Of a stretch of 64,000 nt of DNA, positions 8,736 through 14,533 are shown piece by piece; position 1 is the stretch's first letter, and each line of letters opens with the position of its first letter. Both the position numbers and the translations under genes were made by a program. The DNA comes from Marinobacter sp. MDS2 (GTDB lineage: Bacteria; Pseudomonadota; Gammaproteobacteria; Pseudomonadales; Oleiphilaceae): positions 1,426,001-1,490,000 of the forward strand of contig NZ_JAVAJF010000001.1 of the NCBI RefSeq assembly GCF_030718085.1, given 5' to 3'. The notes under the pieces are model-generated. The model did not search any database, was not told the origin of the DNA, and saw nothing but the letters and a program-made list of their open reading frames with translations.

Positions 8736-8751
8736 TGGCACGCAATCTGCC
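8736..8751 (+). promoter_or_regulatory. Sigma54-type -24/-12 promoter candidate
   Basis: TGGCAC at 8736-8741, five bases, then CTGC at 8747-8750 gives the invariant GG-N10-GC spacing of sigma54 promoters (consensus TGGCAC-N5-TTGC). It lies about 160 bp upstream of the regulator gene and points towards it. A second match precedes the DNS-repeat gene of the same locus. Confidence 0.5.
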
Positions 8752-8796: not shown

Positions 8797-8909
8797 TAGC
8801 GGGTCACACAGGATAGTGGCCGGAGCTTGAGCCGTACCGGCGAAGCAGTCTTCCCCTGCACGACTGGCAGTCCTATTTCCAAGGCATGCTCCGGCGGAGA
8901 ATCGTCCTT

Positions 8910-10304
8910 ATGGAAAAGCGACCGCTTGTTTGGTTATCAGCGGCACACAGCAGCGCGCCCATTCGGGGCATGCTAGAAACACTCTGGAGCCTGATCGATT
9001 TTGATTTTGGCCAACCGCTTTCGCTGTTTCCGAACATTCCCGATGCTGCCAAAGTAGGCGTACTGGCGCTCCCTGAAAATGTCGAAGCTGACCTGCCTCA
9101 GCTGGAAAAGTGGCTTGAGGCCCTCGGCATGATCTACTGGGTCGCCATTGCCCCTCAAAAGCCACATAACCGAACCGCCACCGCCACCGCCAACCTGATC
9201 GTTCGCTATTGTTCTGATTTTCACACCCAACCGGTGGACGGCGAACGCTTGAACACTGTGCTCGGCCATCTTTGGGGCATGGCATCCATAAAAGAAGCCA
9301 GCAGCCATGCCAATCTGCATGACTACGGCGACCTGGCGCTGCTTGGGAGCTCGTCGGCCATTCAAAACGTGCACGGTCTTTTACGGCGTTTCTCAGCCAC
9401 ACTGGAGCCGGTTCTGATTACGGGTGAAAGCAGCACGGGCAAAGACGCAAGCGCCCGGTTCATCCACAACAACTCCATACGCGCCAACGGGCCACTGATC
9501 TTTGTTAATTGCGCTGCCCTGCCCAGCACCCTTACCCAAAGCGAACTGTTCGGCTATGAAAAAGGGGCGTTCACCAGCGCACAACAGTCTCATCCGGGCC
9601 GACTAGAACAGGCAAACGGCGGCACTCTGGTGTTTTCTGGCATCAACGAGCTGCACCTCGAGCAGCAATCCGCATTGCTGCGCTTTCTGCAAGAAGGCGA
9701 GGTTCAGCGAGTGGGCAGCAATACCCGCATTTCGGCAAACGGCCGGGTGATTGCAACAACCACCCAACCCTTGCAAGAACTGGTGGCCGTAGGGTTATTT
9801 CGGAGTGATGTGTATTTTCGCCTGGGCAACCTTGAGGTCATCCTCCCGCCACTAAGGGAGCGTTGCGAGGACATTCCCACTCTCGCTCACGCCCTGCTTG
9901 ACGCATCGCTCCCGGGCATGGAGCAAAAGCGCCTCAGCAGCGCCGCCATGCATTGCTTAATTAACCATTCCTGGCCCGGCAACCTGCAAGAGCTGCAAAA
10001 CCGTTTGCGTCGTGGTGTCTTGCTTAGTGAGCGACCCAAAATCGAACCCGGCGATTTGGGGCTACGCCCCCCGGGCGCCGGCCGCGCGCAGCCGTCTAAC
10101 CTGAGCCTTCAGGCGTTTCGAGATCAGGCCGACCACCAAGCACTCCTGTGCAGTCTTCGTTTGTCGAACAACAACCTGTCTGAGGCCGCGCGGGTTCTGA
10201 AAATATCTCGTGCGTCCTTCTACCGTCTGCTTGAAAAGCACACCGACCACTCATCCAGCAAGAACGCTCATCAAAAGCCGGCCTCCAAGGGAGACACCAC
10301 ATGA
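8910..10304 (+). CDS. Degenerate sigma54-type enhancer-binding regulator (VpsR-like)
   Basis: About 464 aa: an N-terminal receiver-like region without clear phospho-acceptor motifs (1-140), an AAA+ sigma54-activator domain (about 145-375), and a C-terminal Fis-type HTH (NNLSEAARVLKISRASFYRL). Walker A is kept as GESSTGKD (about 172-179). The sigma54-contact loop reads GAFTSA instead of GAFTGA, and the Walker B segment reads GGTLVFSGINEL where GGTLFLDEIGEL is expected, so both acidic residues are gone. It should be unable to hydrolyse ATP normally. VpsR of Vibrio is a family precedent for a bEBP-like protein that works without sigma54. The start is taken at the second ATG (GGAG ten bases upstream); 8886 is the alternative. 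It overlaps the next gene by 4 nt. Confidence 0.82.
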   Translation: MEKRPLVWLSAAHSSAPIRGMLETLWSLIDFDFGQPLSLFPNIPDAAKVGVLALPENVEADLPQLEKWLEALGMIYWVAIAPQKPHNRTATATANLIVRYCSDFHTQPVDGERLNTVLGHLWGMASIKEASSHANLHDYGDLALLGSSSAIQNVHGLLRRFSATLEPVLITGESSTGKDASARFIHNNSIRANGPLIFVNCAALPSTLTQSELFGYEKGAFTSAQQSHPGRLEQANGGTLVFSGINELHLEQQSALLRFLQEGEVQRVGSNTRISANGRVIATTTQPLQELVAVGLFRSDVYFRLGNLEVILPPLRERCEDIPTLAHALLDASLPGMEQKRLSSAAMHCLINHSWPGNLQELQNRLRRGVLLSERPKIEPGDLGLRPPGAGRAQPSNLSLQAFRDQADHQALLCSLRLSNNNLSEAARVLKISRASFYRLLEKHTDHSSSKNAHQKPASKGDTT

Positions 10305-11374
10305 AACGCAAAACCGGATACCTACTCGCGCTCAGCCTCTGCCTTTCACCGGCAAACGCCCTTGCAAAGCCCGAGCACCAAATGCGCCCCGGCGCGGTCA
10401 GTGAAGCCAGACAAAAAGCCGCAGAGGCAAAGGAACATGCTTCGGATATTGCCTCGATCACTGCCGACCGAGGCATCGTCACCAAACCCGGCCGGTTTAT
10501 CATCGAACCCGCCATCTCTCATGCCCACAGCAACTCCACGCTGGTTGCGATAGAAGGCTACACCGTTATACCTGCCCTGCTGATTGGCCTGATCAACATT
10601 TCCGAGGTTCAACGGGATATCTTCGTGGGAGCGGTCTCGTTCAAATATGGCTTTACCAGTCGCCTGGAAACGTCTTTGCGCATTCCATACTTAAACATCA
10701 ACGAAGACATCCGAGAGCGCGAAGTGTTTGAAGGTACGCCCGTTGATACCCTTAGAGAATCTTCGGGCAAGGGGCTGGGCGACATCGAACTTGCTGTGCG
10801 CTACCAACTCAACGATGGTCTCGAAGGATGGCCCTATGTCATTGGCTCGCTCAGAGTCAAAGCGCCCACCGGTGACAGCCCTTACGATGTTGATCAGGAG
10901 GTCATTACTGACAGTCAGGGCAACCCGATCGGCGTTGAACTTGCTGATCGCCCCACCGGCTCGGGTTTTTGGTCGCTCGAACCGGGCTTGTCGTTTATTT
11001 ATCCTTCAGACCCGGCGGTTCTGTACGGCAACGTGAGTTATGTGTACACCCTGAAAGACGACAAAGGTTTTGAGAACGGAAACACCATCGATCCGGGGGA
11101 CGTTCTGCGTTTTGGTTTCGGCATGGGGTTCGCGTTTAACGAACGTACCTCGTTCAGTATTGGCTATGACCAGTCGATCATTGGAGACACTTCATACGAA
11201 CGTGACGTTGACCTGTTTGCCGCCAACTTTGACCGCATTCAGATTGGGTCACTGTCGTTCGGGCTTTCGCAAAGAGTGAGGTCAAACGCCACCCTGAGTC
11301 TTACGGTCAATATTGGCGTTACGGAAACCGCGCCCGACACTGAAATCACCTTAAAACTGCCAATCAGCCTCTAG
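10301..11374 (+). CDS. Outer-membrane beta-barrel protein, FapF/MetA-like
   Basis: A 357-aa exported protein. The signal peptide ends near PANALA (residues 1-22). A short helical, Ala/Lys/Glu-rich segment follows (VSEARQKAAEAKEHASDIAS, residues about 31-50), then about twelve amphipathic beta strands ending in a hydrophobic C-terminal strand (ITLKLPISL). This matches the Phenol_MetA_deg-type barrels that include FapF, the amyloid-export pore of Pseudomonas, which also has a coiled-coil plug before its barrel. Translation is coupled to the regulator gene by an ATGA overlap. The facing operon encodes secreted repeat and small proteins, so export of those products is the likely role (inference). 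Confidence 0.72.
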   Translation: MKRKTGYLLALSLCLSPANALAKPEHQMRPGAVSEARQKAAEAKEHASDIASITADRGIVTKPGRFIIEPAISHAHSNSTLVAIEGYTVIPALLIGLINISEVQRDIFVGAVSFKYGFTSRLETSLRIPYLNINEDIREREVFEGTPVDTLRESSGKGLGDIELAVRYQLNDGLEGWPYVIGSLRVKAPTGDSPYDVDQEVITDSQGNPIGVELADRPTGSGFWSLEPGLSFIYPSDPAVLYGNVSYVYTLKDDKGFENGNTIDPGDVLRFGFGMGFAFNERTSFSIGYDQSIIGDTSYERDVDLFAANFDRIQIGSLSFGLSQRVRSNATLSLTVNIGVTETAPDTEITLKLPISL

Positions 11375-11404
11375 CACCGCTTGAAGCTGTTTCGCCCCGG
11401 AAAA

Positions 11405-11896
11405 CTAACGCCCTAAAAACGGAAGGGCCGGGTTCTTCACGTGATCAGGAAGGCCATAGCCGCCACCCAGATTTCTTAATTCGATATTAAGCTGACGCAC
11501 ATTCTGAATAACTGAGCCATTCAGATCATTCTGGATTAACGTCAGCCAACCTCCCGAAGCCGAGGATGCAGATACCAGTGCCTGCCCGCTCTGAGTGGAA
11601 TCCATCAGGCCGAGCATGGTCTCGACTTGGTGCGGCACCACGCTGCCGCTCCCCATTTGGTTGAGGTTGGGAATCGTCAAACGGTTCACCGCAAGGGTAT
11701 CTCCATTCACCGAAATAACCTGCTCAAGCCCGATCGAAATCTCAAGGTTGTCGAGAATGAAGCCGCCACGTTGCCCGGCAAGCTCGAAATCGGTCAACGG
11801 TTGTGCAATGAACAGGCTTTCCGCGCTGGCAGCCAAGGACCCCGTAGCTAATCCGGCAACAAACCCGACCATCAAAAATCCGTGTCGCCTTTTCAT
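11405..11896 (-). CDS. Sec-exported small protein with double-glycine-type site and QN/VxQ motif
   Basis: 163 aa from the ATG at 11896 (GGAG ten bases upstream); the longer frame overlaps the peptidase gene and is rejected. The signal peptide ends at SLAASA. Shortly after comes LTDFELAGQRGG, a full match to the double-glycine leader pattern LSxxELxxIxGG cut by C39 peptidases. The mature part has amphipathic beta character (LEISIGLEQVISVNG). Near the C-terminus, GGWLTLIQNDLNGSVIQ matches a signature found in the two other secreted proteins of this operon. It is the last gene of the operon, four bases after the C39 peptidase gene. The family is unknown; a minor fibre subunit or chaperone is possible. 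Confidence 0.75.
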   Translation of the reverse strand: MKRRHGFLMVGFVAGLATGSLAASAESLFIAQPLTDFELAGQRGGFILDNLEISIGLEQVISVNGDTLAVNRLTIPNLNQMGSGSVVPHQVETMLGLMDSTQSGQALVSASSASGGWLTLIQNDLNGSVIQNVRQLNIELRNLGGGYGLPDHVKNPALPFLGR

Positions 11897-11900
11897 GGTG

Positions 11901-12593
11901 CTACCACTCCCTAGTTGATGGCCAATAAGGCAAGGTGTGGCCAAGTGACGGACCGTCCTGTCCTTTTTCAAGGGGCGCCCGAACCACCTGGGGCCAGTCT
12001 CCCGCCGCCAGGAAGGTGCTGCGCCCTTGTTTGACATGGCTACGGATAACAAACGCCGCACCATCCCAGTAACCTTCAAATTCAGCCCGAGGATAAGCTT
12101 TTAAACCACGAGCAGGATCACCCACTAGCACCTCATCGTCGCTGATTCCTTTAATGACAACAAAGTGACGGAAGCCCTCAAGGTTCATCAGCACAATCAC
12201 CGGCAAACTCACTTGTTCCCGTATACCGGCTAGAGGCATGCGAAAACCGTCGGCCTGATAGCCTTTCGATGCCAGAAACCGTTTCATATCCAGCATCGAG
12301 AAACCGTCTTTGCGCACCTTCGCCGGATCCGCCAACTCGAACATGCCGGAGAACACTTCCTGTTCCGAAACCTCGTGGCTGTAATGGTAGGAAAGCAATG
12401 AGGCAACAGCGGCCGAACCACAACTAAAGTCATACTGCTGTTGCATCACCGAGCTGAAGCGCTGTTCTTTGAAGCTGCTTACCTGAACCTGCAAGCCACC
12501 CGCCAGCCCTGGCAAGGTAACCGTGCCGGCAAACGCGGTGGACCAAAGAACCACAGTGCTGGCTAAACTTACGACAAGCAGCTGCTTAACCAT
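11901..12593 (-). CDS. Periplasmic C39-family cysteine peptidase (FapD-like)
   Basis: 230 aa with an N-terminal signal peptide (ending near STAFA) and a single C39 peptidase domain. The catalytic Cys is in QQQYDFSCGSAA (C58), the His in GFRHFVVIKG (H143) and the Asp in VGDPARG (D159); the oxyanion Gln precedes the Cys. No ABC-transporter domains are fused, so this is a stand-alone periplasmic enzyme like FapD of the Pseudomonas Fap amyloid system. The RBS AGGAGG lies six bases from the ATG. The genes on both sides encode exported proteins with double-glycine-type sites, the likely substrates (inference). Confidence 0.88.
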   Translation of the reverse strand: MVKQLLVVSLASTVVLWSTAFAGTVTLPGLAGGLQVQVSSFKEQRFSSVMQQQYDFSCGSAAVASLLSYHYSHEVSEQEVFSGMFELADPAKVRKDGFSMLDMKRFLASKGYQADGFRMPLAGIREQVSLPVIVLMNLEGFRHFVVIKGISDDEVLVGDPARGLKAYPRAEFEGYWDGAAFVIRSHVKQGRSTFLAAGDWPQVVRAPLEKGQDGPSLGHTLPYWPSTREW

Positions 12594-12606
12594 GGCCCAC
12601 CTCCTG

Positions 12607-12942
12607 TCAGCGGTTGATCAGAATGTTCACCTGAGTACTGTCCTGGATCACCACTTGGTTTCCGCTATTCTGGATCACCGTTGCGATACCGGTCATGTTG
12701 TCGAAGGCGTGGTCGGAAATGCTGTTTGCTCCGGTCACCACATTGCCTTGGAGACGGTTGCCAGTCACCGTCGCCATCTGGTCTGTCTCGTTAAACTGCA
12801 ACTGTAACGGAACACCCTGACGGCCACTGGTCTCAGCTAACTGATCCGGCGACAGAGGCTCTACGTTCAGGAATCCCTCTGCATGAACCAAACCGCACCC
12901 TGCCAATGCCAGTACACAGATCACCCTTTTGATGTATCCCAT
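12607..12942 (-). CDS. Small Sec-exported protein with curlin-like QN/VxQ motif
   Basis: 111 aa from the ATG at 12942 (GGAGG seven bases upstream). The signal peptide ends near GLVHA. LSPDQLAETSG follows within about ten residues, a variant of the double-glycine leader pattern. The C-terminal half carries TGIATVIQNSGNQVVIQ and ends NILINR. The same 17-column pattern occurs in the DNS-repeat protein upstream and in the last gene of the operon. It is rich in Asn, Gln, Thr and Val. It is possibly a nucleator or minor subunit of a secreted fibre, in the way FapB serves FapC; this role is inferred from arrangement only. Confidence 0.75.
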   Translation of the reverse strand: MGYIKRVICVLALAGCGLVHAEGFLNVEPLSPDQLAETSGRQGVPLQLQFNETDQMATVTGNRLQGNVVTGANSISDHAFDNMTGIATVIQNSGNQVVIQDSTQVNILINR

Positions 12943-12998
12943 GACGGTTCCTCCCGGAACGCACGGTCGCACCGTTATTCCGGTGCGACCGGTCCTCC

Positions 12999-14210
12999 TC
13001 AGTTACCGCCGGTGGTCAGGTTAGACATCACGCTGACGTTCGCCTGCGTGACACTGCCATGCCCGGTGTTCTGGGAAATTGCGCCTACACCGGTAAAGTT
13101 AGCGGAACCACCGGAGATTTCATTGTGGTTCATAACGTCAGTGTAAGAGCCTTCACCATTGGCGTCGCCATAGGTAACGCTGGTGCCGCTCACTGTACCT
13201 GCCAGGTCCGCGTTGTTCAGGAACACATGCAGGTTCAGGTTTGCAGTGCTGTTGTCGGAGTTATCGGAGTTATTCGAATTGTCGTTGTTGCTGTTAGCGA
13301 CGTTATTCGAGTTATTGGTACTGTTATCAGAGTTATCAGAGTTGTCTGAATTATCAGAGTTATCGGAATTGTCGGAATTATCCGAGTTGTCCGAATTATC
13401 TGAGTTGTCGTTATTGCTGTCTGCTACGTTGTTGGAGTTACGGGTACTGTTATCCGAGTTGTCAGAGTTATCGGAATTATCCGAGTTGTCTGAACTGTCG
13501 TTATTGCTGTTCGCGGTGTTGTTCGAATTGTTGGTGCTGTTGTTCGAACTGTCTGAGTTGTCAGAGTTATCTGAATTGTCTGAGTTGTCTGAGTTGTCTG
13601 AGTTATCCGACGCATCCGAGTTGTCCGAATTGTCATTACCGCTGTCGGCGATCTTGAACGAATCGGTCACATTGGTGCTGTTGTCCGAGCTGTCGGAATT
13701 GTCAGAGTTATCCGAATTGTCGGAGTTGTCTGAATTATCCGAATTATCCGAGTTATCCGACATATCATTACCACTGTCAGCAACCTTGAACGAATCGGTC
13801 GCAGTGGCGCTGTTATCGGAGTTATTCGAGTTGTCTGAATTATCCGAGTTATCGGAGTTGTCCGAGTTATTCGAAGCATCGGAGTTGTCCGAGTTGTCAT
13901 TGCCGCTGTCCGCTATTTTGAACGAGTCAGTGGCAGTGGCACTGTTGTCCGAGTTATTCGAATTATCGGAATTGTCGGAATTATTCGAATTGTCGGAGTT
14001 GTCGGAATTATCCGAGTTGTTTGAGCTGTCCGGGTAATTCGAGTTATCATTGCCCGAATTGGTATTTCCGGAATTGTCATTGTTAGCCGTCGCGTTATCG
14101 ACAGCGTTGGTGTTCGGGTCACCGTCCCCACCCACATCTGCATAGGCCACACCTGACAGGCCCAGACCTAATGCAACAGCAATCGCTAGCAAGCTTTTTT
14201 GAGTTTTCAT
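12999..14210 (-). CDS. Secreted (DNS)n tripeptide-repeat protein, candidate fibre subunit
   Basis: 403 aa from the ATG at 14210 (AAGGAAG seven bases upstream). The signal peptide ends at VAYA. Residues about 50-315 are almost only Asp, Asn and Ser in tripeptide runs (DNS, NNS, DNS). These are broken into a higher-order repeat: three units ending in a TDSFKIADSGND-type spacer, then three ending in a TNNSNNVANSNND-type spacer. A non-repetitive C-terminal domain of about 85 residues contains TGVGAISQNTGHGSVTQ, matching the two small secreted proteins downstream. The repeat region is strongly acidic and should be disordered or calcium-binding. It is the first gene of the four-gene operon and is preceded by a GG-N10-GC promoter match. 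No known family recognised. Confidence 0.85.
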   Translation of the reverse strand: MKTQKSLLAIAVALGLGLSGVAYADVGGDGDPNTNAVDNATANNDNSGNTNSGNDNSNYPDSSNNSDNSDNSDNSNNSDNSDNSNNSDNSATATDSFKIADSGNDNSDNSDASNNSDNSDNSDNSDNSNNSDNSATATDSFKVADSGNDMSDNSDNSDNSDNSDNSDNSDNSDSSDNSTNVTDSFKIADSGNDNSDNSDASDNSDNSDNSDNSDNSDNSDSSNNSTNNSNNTANSNNDSSDNSDNSDNSDNSDNSTRNSNNVADSNNDNSDNSDNSDNSDNSDNSDNSDNSDNSDNSTNNSNNVANSNNDNSNNSDNSDNSTANLNLHVFLNNADLAGTVSGTSVTYGDANGEGSYTDVMNHNEISGGSANFTGVGAISQNTGHGSVTQANVSVMSNLTTGGN

Positions 14211-14533
14211 GATATCGCTTCCTTCTAACATCATTGCACTTCTCTTTTTGGCCCGTCCCGCTCGACTACCGTTTACTGCTATCTGAATAGGTCAGACCCT
14301 CGGAAACACAGTAGCGATTAACGTGCCACATCGTTAGAAAACAAGCTCAACCATCTGATTTTAAATAACAAAAATAGAGTATGGGCGAACAGTTAAGCTT
14401 CACCCCCCCGCAAAAACTGTTTCAGATCTGGTACAACAACACCGCACAAGTCAGCGCTACAATGAAATACCCTCTAACTTTCAGGGCGTTACCTTTTAAA
14501 CACTTGTCAGCCTTCCTTACGCTACTCCAGACA
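14211..14533. other. Intergenic region upstream of the fibre-like operon
   Basis: About 320 bp between the DNS-repeat gene and the isocitrate lyase terminator. It contains the sigma54-like promoter match and an A/T-rich stretch around 14360-14390. No convincing gene was seen. Confidence 0.6.
14314..14328 (-). promoter_or_regulatory. Sigma54-type -24/-12 promoter candidate for the fibre-like operon
   Basis: On the minus strand TGGCAC, five bases, TCGC gives GG-N10-GC, about 105 bp upstream of the DNS-repeat ATG. The -24 half is a perfect consensus match; the -12 half has one change (TCGC for TTGC). It points into the operon. Confidence 0.5.

Follow-up and report, generated by a model that had tools for sequence, protein, structure and literature searches.

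An Export Locus of Marinobacter sp. MDS2 as a Probable Sister Branch of Fap

Introduction

The window analysed here is a stretch of 64,000 nucleotides of Marinobacter sp. MDS2 (contig NZ_JAVAJF010000001.1, positions 1,426,001-1,490,000), and all coordinates are given relative to it. It contains a six-gene cluster encoding a transcriptional activator, an outer-membrane barrel, a C39 peptidase and three proteins with predicted export signals. Comparison with known families makes it close to certain that this is an export locus related to Fap, the functional-amyloid secretion system of Pseudomonas (fapABCDEF). We consider it likely that the locus is a sister branch of Fap with fibre subunits of its own; two of these would be cleaved in the periplasm, and together they would build a fibre outside the cell. 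Compared loci and genomes are designated L and G, respectively.

Organization of the Locus

A first-pass annotation of this DNA had described five genes in facing units, and their content, coordinates and arrangement were confirmed by open reading frame (ORF) calls, Pfam and TRF. The set was nevertheless incomplete, as the gene of a sigma54-dependent activator preceding the barrel also belongs to the cluster (Table 1). The activator and barrel genes form one unit on the forward strand, while the genes of the repeat protein, the subunit of 111 amino acids (aa), the C39 peptidase and the 163-aa protein form the other on the reverse strand. The 3' end of the activator gene and the 5' end of the barrel gene overlap by 4 bases, and the barrel and 163-aa genes converge with a stop-to-stop gap of 30 bases. 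Export signals were called by eye and by regular expression rather than with SignalP.

Table 1. Genes and candidate signals of the cluster, in window coordinates
Feature	Position	Strand	Basis or remark
Candidate -24/-12 (sigma54) promoter before the activator-barrel unit, TGGCACGCAATCTGCC	8736..8751	+	
Sigma54-dependent activator (enhancer-binding protein), VpsR-like N-terminal domain	8886..10304	+	Pfam
FapF-like outer-membrane barrel, 357 aa	10301..11374	+	NCBIfam FapF, PDB 5o67
FapE-like secreted subunit, 163 aa	11405..11896	-	In-frame ATG 4 bases past the C39 stop
FapE-like leader LTDFELAGQRGG, predicted C39 cut after G45	11762..11797	-	Alignment A3, 46 rows
FapD-like C39 peptidase, 230 aa, predicted periplasmic	11901..12593	-	NCBIfam FapD
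111-aa secreted subunit ("subB")	12607..12942	-	In-frame ATG within a longer GTG frame
Leader of the 111-aa subunit LSPDQLAETSGR, predicted cut after R41	12820..12855	-	Register as in the FapE-like leader
Repeat protein, 403 aa: signal peptide, (DNS)n acidic spacer, conserved C-terminal module	12999..14210	-	
C-terminal module of the repeat protein, NEISGGSANFTGVGAISQNTGHGSVTQANVSVMSNL core	13002..13256	-	Alignment A2, 48 rows; hhalign to the 111-aa subunit
Candidate -24/-12 promoter of the four-gene subunit operon, TGGCACGTTAATCGCT	14313..14328	-	118 bases before the start

The Export Pair and Its Place in the C39 Tree

The barrel matches the NCBIfam FapF model (E = 4.1e-42, 144.5 bits), the solved FapF structure (PDB 5o67, 7.8e-33) and the Pfam family Phenol_MetA_deg (5.7e-8), and it carries two PTG motifs, at residues 189 and 218. 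The FapF model could be aligned to it from position 98 onward only, so that the N-terminal coiled coil is apparently missing, and its helical plug is implied solely through the FapF match. The C39 peptidase matches the NCBIfam FapD model (1.1e-44, 152.3 bits) and Peptidase_C39 of Pfam (1.6e-20); its catalytic Cys58 sits in D[FY]SCG, and the active-site motif is found in 82 of 82 relatives. The activator matches Sigma54_activat (4.5e-53) and VpsR (8.9e-7) in Pfam, and its gene is kept beside the locus in relatives of the family. VpsR itself binds c-di-GMP.

A tree was built from 54 hand-chosen C39 peptidases, 23 of them from loci of the window's family (L113-L115 being counted apart), and was rooted at its midpoint. 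The canonical Fap peptidases form a clade of 7 rows (support 100/100), and the window's peptidase, which is nearest to that of G055 (91% identity), lies outside it in a clade of 33 rows with its kin (96/86). A further branch (98/93) separates these two clades from the rest, Fil-type sequences included, and the two are sisters on condition that the true root falls outside those 40 rows. Since genome G261 carries one locus of each kind, canonical Fap (L138) and the present kind (L145), a sister system is preferred over a fast-evolving fap. The earlier description of a parts list that parallels Fap in a locus of a new type was right as to the likeness, but too cautious, because the barrel and peptidase are homologous to FapF and FapD by NCBIfam, PDB and the tree; the locus is new as a sister clade with its own subunits, and not as an unrelated system.

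Among the closest other systems is Fil, the "putative pilus system" (FilA-F) of Acinetobacter, which likewise combines a C39 peptidase, a FapF-like barrel and exported proteins. Membership of the present locus in that group instead of Fap would explain why its peptidase matches FilB (1.2e-31) and its barrel FilC (1.8e-17), and FilA of L154 has, by eye, a comparable leader, LxxxALxxATGQ. However, the FapD and FapF models outscore FilB and FilC, the C39 tree places the locus beside Fap, apart from the Fil-type clade, the cargo is different, the two window subunits scanned gave no FilA match, and the genome holds a separate Fil-like cluster (L116); we regard this assignment as very improbable. 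By eye, each of the Fil-like clusters L116 and L154 additionally encodes a FadL-like protein. The label "Fil-type" was also considered for L120-L122 and rejected, all three lying outside the Fil-type clade.

Set against canonical Fap, the locus keeps the order subunits-D-E-F. The earlier statement that gene order and strand layout differ holds only for fapF, which is inverted here and stands behind the activator gene, its product lacking a match to the N-terminal coiled coil. A sigma54-type activator gene is likewise found near 5 of 7 canonical loci (one clipped at the edge). FapB and FapC are replaced here by the leader-bearing 111-aa subunit and a long low-complexity protein, with one diverged module each, and none of the six window proteins scanned matched FapA. 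In the excerpts available of the papers cited here by PMC number, the commonest deviations of fap operons are given as absence of fapA and separation of fapF (PMC3792158), and colocalised fapD and fapF homologues are described in five further phyla (PMC6173800). Among the literature matches listed, none dealt by its title or the opening of its abstract with a Marinobacter or Nitrospira locus of Fap type; Marinobacter may be included in the genus figure of PMC6173800, which lies outside the excerpt.

Conservation in the Family and Beyond

The window's family comprised 163 genomes including its own, and some C39 match was found in 148. Matches of the locus type (E <= 3.4e-44) occur in 83 genomes, again with the window's own, and the next matches start at 3.3e-32. 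One locus was compared from each of the other 82 genomes. All six genes lie together in 78 of these 82 loci, 77 of them with identical order and strands. Because of this co-occurrence, the parts can be said to belong together, as had been proposed for a secreted-fibre locus comparable to Fap; the outcome that the first-pass annotation named as a refutation, a lack of co-occurrence in a neighbourhood survey, did not arise. In the 78th locus, L050 (G122), the unit of repeat, 111-aa, C39 and FapE-like genes is present as a tandem duplicate with one barrel and one activator gene. Among the incomplete loci, L112 is without a repeat gene by the query used, L113 gave barrel and C39 only, L114 lies on a contig of 3,682 bases, and the query used missed the repeat and FapE-like genes of L115; later inspection revealed a FapE-like gene in both L113 and L115. 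L110 (G037) is a decaying copy, with a short C39 frame, a barrel in two pieces with an internal stop, and a truncated subunit. Eight loci with weaker C39 matches were also inspected, and a barrel match adjoins each. In the tree, five of them (L116, L118, L119, L123, L124) belong to the Fil-type clade, two (L121, L122) form a branch of their own, and L120 groups with L149.

Named genomes were scanned for the 111-aa subunit with alignment A4 (17 remoter rows), yielding 117 relatives in at least 79 loci. Among the matches listed, 28 loci are not from Marinobacter, and 24 of them were examined, L155, L156, L191 and L207 being left out as their genomes were already covered. The hosts are Nitrospira, Dechloromonas, Azonexus, Aromatoleum, Hydrogenophilales, Crenobacter, Pusillimonas, Alcaligenaceae, Lysobacteraceae, Chromatiaceae, Crenotrichaceae, Mangrovitalea (of the window's own family), Geobacteraceae and other bins. 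Many of these loci come from metagenome bins, so that single taxon assignments may err; the named records that contain the core are from Nitrospira and from beta-, gamma- and deltaproteobacteria. The 111-aa subunit gene is followed by the C39 gene in 24/24 loci, and the C39 gene by a FapE-like gene in 23/24. A FapF barrel was found in 18 of the 24, on the strand opposite to C39 in ten and on the same strand in eight; five of the six misses are contig-end stretches, and L230 has none in the available stretch. In 15 of the 24, there is also a sigma54 activator scoring 150 bits or more. The cargo described here indicates what the FapD-FapF pairs of Nitrospira, Geobacteraceae and Betaproteobacteria may export, namely subunits which the FapB and FapC models missed.

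A Candidate Second Leader Following Sec Export Signals

The FapE-like and 111-aa proteins share, after the Sec signal, the pattern L-x4-L-x4-G-[GRK], which we take to be akin to the double-glycine leader of C39 substrates. In its canonical form, that leader has hydrophobic residues at -12 and -7, [ST] at -11, [EQ] at -8 and glycine at -2 and -1. Alignment A3 comprises 46 selected FapE-like rows (33 from the window family, 7 from other families of the clade and 6 canonical FapE; the canonical locus L140, with its FapE unlocated, was omitted), and R43 and G44 are its sole invariant residues. Position -12 is hydrophobic and -7 is L or M in all 46, -11 is [ST] in 30 and -8 is E in 34; R at -3, G at -2 and F or Y at +1 occur in 46/46, and -1 is G in 40 rows, the other 6 having R or K. 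The six aligned canonical FapE read RGR or RGK at this register. Among 23 distant FapE-like proteins, RG[GRK] is present in all and is followed by F or Y in 22, the exception being L218, a possible chance match; these proteins were found by a profile from the A3 rows and are not independent of the motif.

In the window family (L110 left out of the leader counts), the 111-aa subunit carries the leader in the same register, with GR; a loose test finds it in 78 of 80 cases and a strict one in 70 of 80, as compared with 33/562 and 0/562 flanking control ORFs, or 9/151 and 0/151 of those with a signal-like start. The FapE-like scan gave 67/79 and 49/79, a shortfall partly caused by automatic start choice. 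The leader was found in 0/77 repeat proteins, 0/81 C39 peptidases and 0/81 barrels of the family. Distant 111-aa subunits carry the loose form in 15 of 22 loci, with L218 doubtful among them, and the NCBIfam leader models gave no match for the subunit leaders. From these patterns we predict that the motif is likely the C39 cut site in both the FapE-like and the 111-aa protein.

The literature on FapD bears on this prediction. In the excerpt of the 2017 structure paper (PMC5557850), Cys38 of FapD is required for FapC secretion, N-terminal peptides of FapE are absent from mass spectra, and FapA to FapD are unprocessed; these observations fit the proposed leader cut. A cut in the FapF linker is weighed there as well; the paper describes the target of FapD as unclear and the Fap proteins as being without canonical C39 sequences. 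The portion seen of a 2018 review (PMC6173800) gives the FapD substrate as undetermined, and that of a 2025 review (PMC12822426) reports the view that FapD processes the N-terminus of FapE. Cutting of FapE was thus already suspected, and the addition made here is a candidate site. The locus clade keeps an apparent full double-glycine form where canonical FapE have RGR or RGK, and has a second leader-bearing subunit; in Pseudomonas, a change of the second glycine to R or K would have concealed the motif.

A C39 domain and leaders with hydrophobic -12 and -7, G at -2 and [GRK] at -1 would also be expected of bacteriocin-like peptide secretion with C39 maturation (type 1). In the present locus, however, the leader follows a Sec-type signal, the peptidase is free-standing and predicted periplasmic, the barrel is of FapF type, no ATP-binding cassette (ABC) transporter occurs among the six proteins, and the substrates share a conserved module rich in glutamine and asparagine (QN). 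This is the least credible of the readings considered.

By eye, a small exported-looking protein at L153:9162-9659 (-) bears a full double-glycine leader, PLTSAQMDGVSAGG, after a Sec-like signal, and adjoins a C39 gene and a FapF-like barrel gene. The FapA-like proteins of L138, L143, L229 and L230 show an RG motif and, further on, an ILWDE motif (by eye), which makes FapA a possible additional target of C39 in some lineages.

Small Subunits and the QN-Rich Module

The 163-aa protein matches the NCBIfam FapE model far below its cut-off and at the N-terminus only (0.0012 as a longer 185-aa frame, or 0.00075), and its family can be aligned with six canonical FapE in A3; on these comparisons it is probably a remote FapE relative. 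The earlier opinion that the subunits are not recognisable Fap proteins would then not hold for this one. It holds for the 111-aa subunit and the repeat protein, which matched neither FapB nor FapC models and mostly lack the published Fap repeat pattern, X15GX4NX3GX6NX7. As a positive control, the same library detected FapA, FapB and FapC in L135, FapB and FapC in L138, and FapC in L141. The FapB and FapC matches have E values of 1e-26 to 1e-81, four of the five falling below the cut-off; FapA and FapB of L135 exceed it, and the other four control matches lie at 1e-26 to 1e-56.

The 111-aa subunit has a single copy in its own genome and no family match in Pfam or NCBIfam, and a protein search with it returned 120 proteins at E <= 0.001, the window copy included. 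Its C-terminal module reads TVIQNxGNxVxIQ, with QN positions invariant or nearly so across 71 rows (alignment A1). By hhalign, related modules end the FapE-like protein (97.6%, E 3.8e-12) and the repeat protein (89%, E 2.4e-6). Wider alignments gave 96.3% and 75.1%, and the direct comparison of the FapE-like with the repeat-protein C-terminus only 2%, with 0/60 column shuffles as high in each case; such shuffles preserve composition and lose order, and are a mild control used with no other QN-rich family as a negative. The three exported proteins seem to share one diverged QN-rich module, which is best supported for the two small ones. Curli (csg) also has QN-rich secreted subunits, a likeness by analogy only: Curlin_rpt gave no match at E up to 10 in the 9 proteins tested, a search that did not extend to CsgG and similar proteins.

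The Repeat Protein

The repeat array is far beyond chance (TRF scores up to 515). The middle of the protein is 83% D+N+S with 48 DNS triplets, and the net charge after the signal is -68; at 403 aa, it is long, yet not "enormous" as first described. Relatives among the matches listed range from 209 aa (L104) to 423 aa (L100); an automatic range starting from 13 aa was distorted by start picking and was not used. A protein search with the C-terminus found 6 homologues, far below the genome survey, and was not used as a count. The NCBIfam match to lipase_YSIRK (2.7e-5) was rejected as a low-complexity match. An (SEL)n open frame at 13183-14037 (+) is the complement of the repeat array, with no evidence for a gene.

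In 22 distant loci, the gene before the 111-aa subunit encodes a longer protein with the same type of module (22/22; 21 by pattern, L228 by eye). Of these distant loci, L217 and L233 have a DNS-rich spacer like that found in Marinobacter and in the loci L144 and L148, and glycine makes up 19-38% of the repeat-type protein in 16 of the 22 loci. Because distant loci swap the spacer and keep the C-terminal module, the (DNS)n stretch appears to be an exchangeable part. The spacer switches between an acidic DNS-rich form (L217, L233, L144, L148) and a glycine-rich form (L206, L211-L213, L223, L231, L232), and this switch in chemistry may track salt versus freshwater habitat.

These properties raise the question of whether the same export machine might deliver a non-amyloid product, with the (DNS)n protein as a disordered acidic surface brush or spacer (for hydration, ion binding or adhesion) tethered by the QN-module proteins. 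The composition and charge of the middle would suit such a brush, as would the glycine-rich or other spacers of most distant loci with the C-terminal module kept, the single QN module per subunit, and the lack of a confident beta-solenoid model. Against it, the FapD-FapF pair studied in the excerpt of PMC5557850 exports amyloid, and the near-invariance of the QN positions in the 111-aa subunit is as expected for a stacked core. We judge the brush unlikely, and the balance tilts towards an amyloid fibre as the product.

Candidate Promoters

Candidate -24/-12 promoters precede both units. Sites were scored with weights of our own, modelled on the consensus. The -12 part of that consensus is TTGC, and that of TGGCACGTTAATCGCT is TCGC. 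Before the repeat gene, the best site scores at least 21.5 in 62 of 76 relatives, as against 31 of 395 random stretches, and it lies 100-119 bases upstream in 62 of 76. The signal before the activator is weaker, reaching at least 19.5 in 69/78 versus 109/395 random stretches and at least 21.5 in 18/78 versus 31/395. In other lineages, at least 21.5 is reached in 14 of 25 loci versus 25 of 250 random stretches. A sigma70 scan found 3 promoters where 3.8 are expected by chance. A terminator-like hairpin at 14567-14538 stands ahead of the subunit operon, and the stretch scanned contains 9 such sites versus 6.9 expected.

A Model for Export and Assembly

In the model that we favour, the activator would turn on both units together, and all exported parts would pass through Sec. 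The periplasmic C39 would then cut the FapE-like and 111-aa proteins after L-x4-L-x4-G-[GRK], with the repeat protein staying uncut, and the subunits would traverse the barrel unfolded. Outside, the related QN-rich modules, one per subunit, would stack to form a fibre or a mat on the surface, and the acidic (DNS)n stretch would project from it as a hydrated spacer.

Several results weigh against this model of a Fap sister branch. None of its three Fap-like proteins reaches the equivalog cut-off, the barrel standing at 144.5 bits (FapF, 700), the peptidase at 152.3 (FapD, 330) and the 163-aa protein below that of FapE, although the FapF and FapD scores are such as distant relatives would give. 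Seven of 22 distant 111-aa subunits are without the leader as tested (L214, L217, L220, L221, L224, L229, L233; some with a shifted RG by eye), and the strict form occurs in 3/22 only. The 111-aa module compares weakly with the FapB/C repeats (44%, 0/60 shuffles as high; 47%, 0/200), a link which is suggestive; that of the repeat protein is poor (1.5%, 0/60; 2%, 5/200), and the FapE-like C-terminus gave no signal (27/60 shuffles as high). The Fap repeat core G-X4-N-X3-G-X6-N is literally present in 7/81 111-aa subunits and 0/78 repeat-protein C-termini. AlphaFold2 models are poor for both the 111-aa subunit (mean pLDDT 54.9, pTM 0.19) and the FapE-like subunit (67.1, 0.47), and Foldseek with the latter gave no match at E <= 0.001. 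Finally, each subunit has only one QN module, which does not account for a cross-beta core; according to the excerpt of PMC3792158, there are three repeats in FapC and in most FapB, and one in the FapB of Vibrio. Period-5 strands in the 111-aa model and a helix over the leader (residues 36-42) in the FapE-like model were set aside, the models being too weak.

A broader idea, to which we give about even chances, is that the locus exemplifies a widespread class in which Sec-exported subunits carry a second, double-glycine-type leader, whose removal by a free C39 in the periplasm licenses FapF-type export. That canonical Fap, the locus clade and perhaps Fil are branches of this class is a proposal which could equally well go either way. 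If it is true, FapD gains a definite recognition sequence.

Further C39 Matches in the Same Genome

The genome of Marinobacter sp. MDS2 (G000) has two more C39 matches. One, L117 (G000:C2:255278-269655), is at 5.0e-7, with no barrel or subunit match adjacent. The other belongs to L116 (G000:C1:471544-485951), a second cluster of C39 and FapF-like barrel in the Fil-type clade, whose FadL-like protein is of 544 aa and which also encodes a lipoprotein-like protein (by eye).

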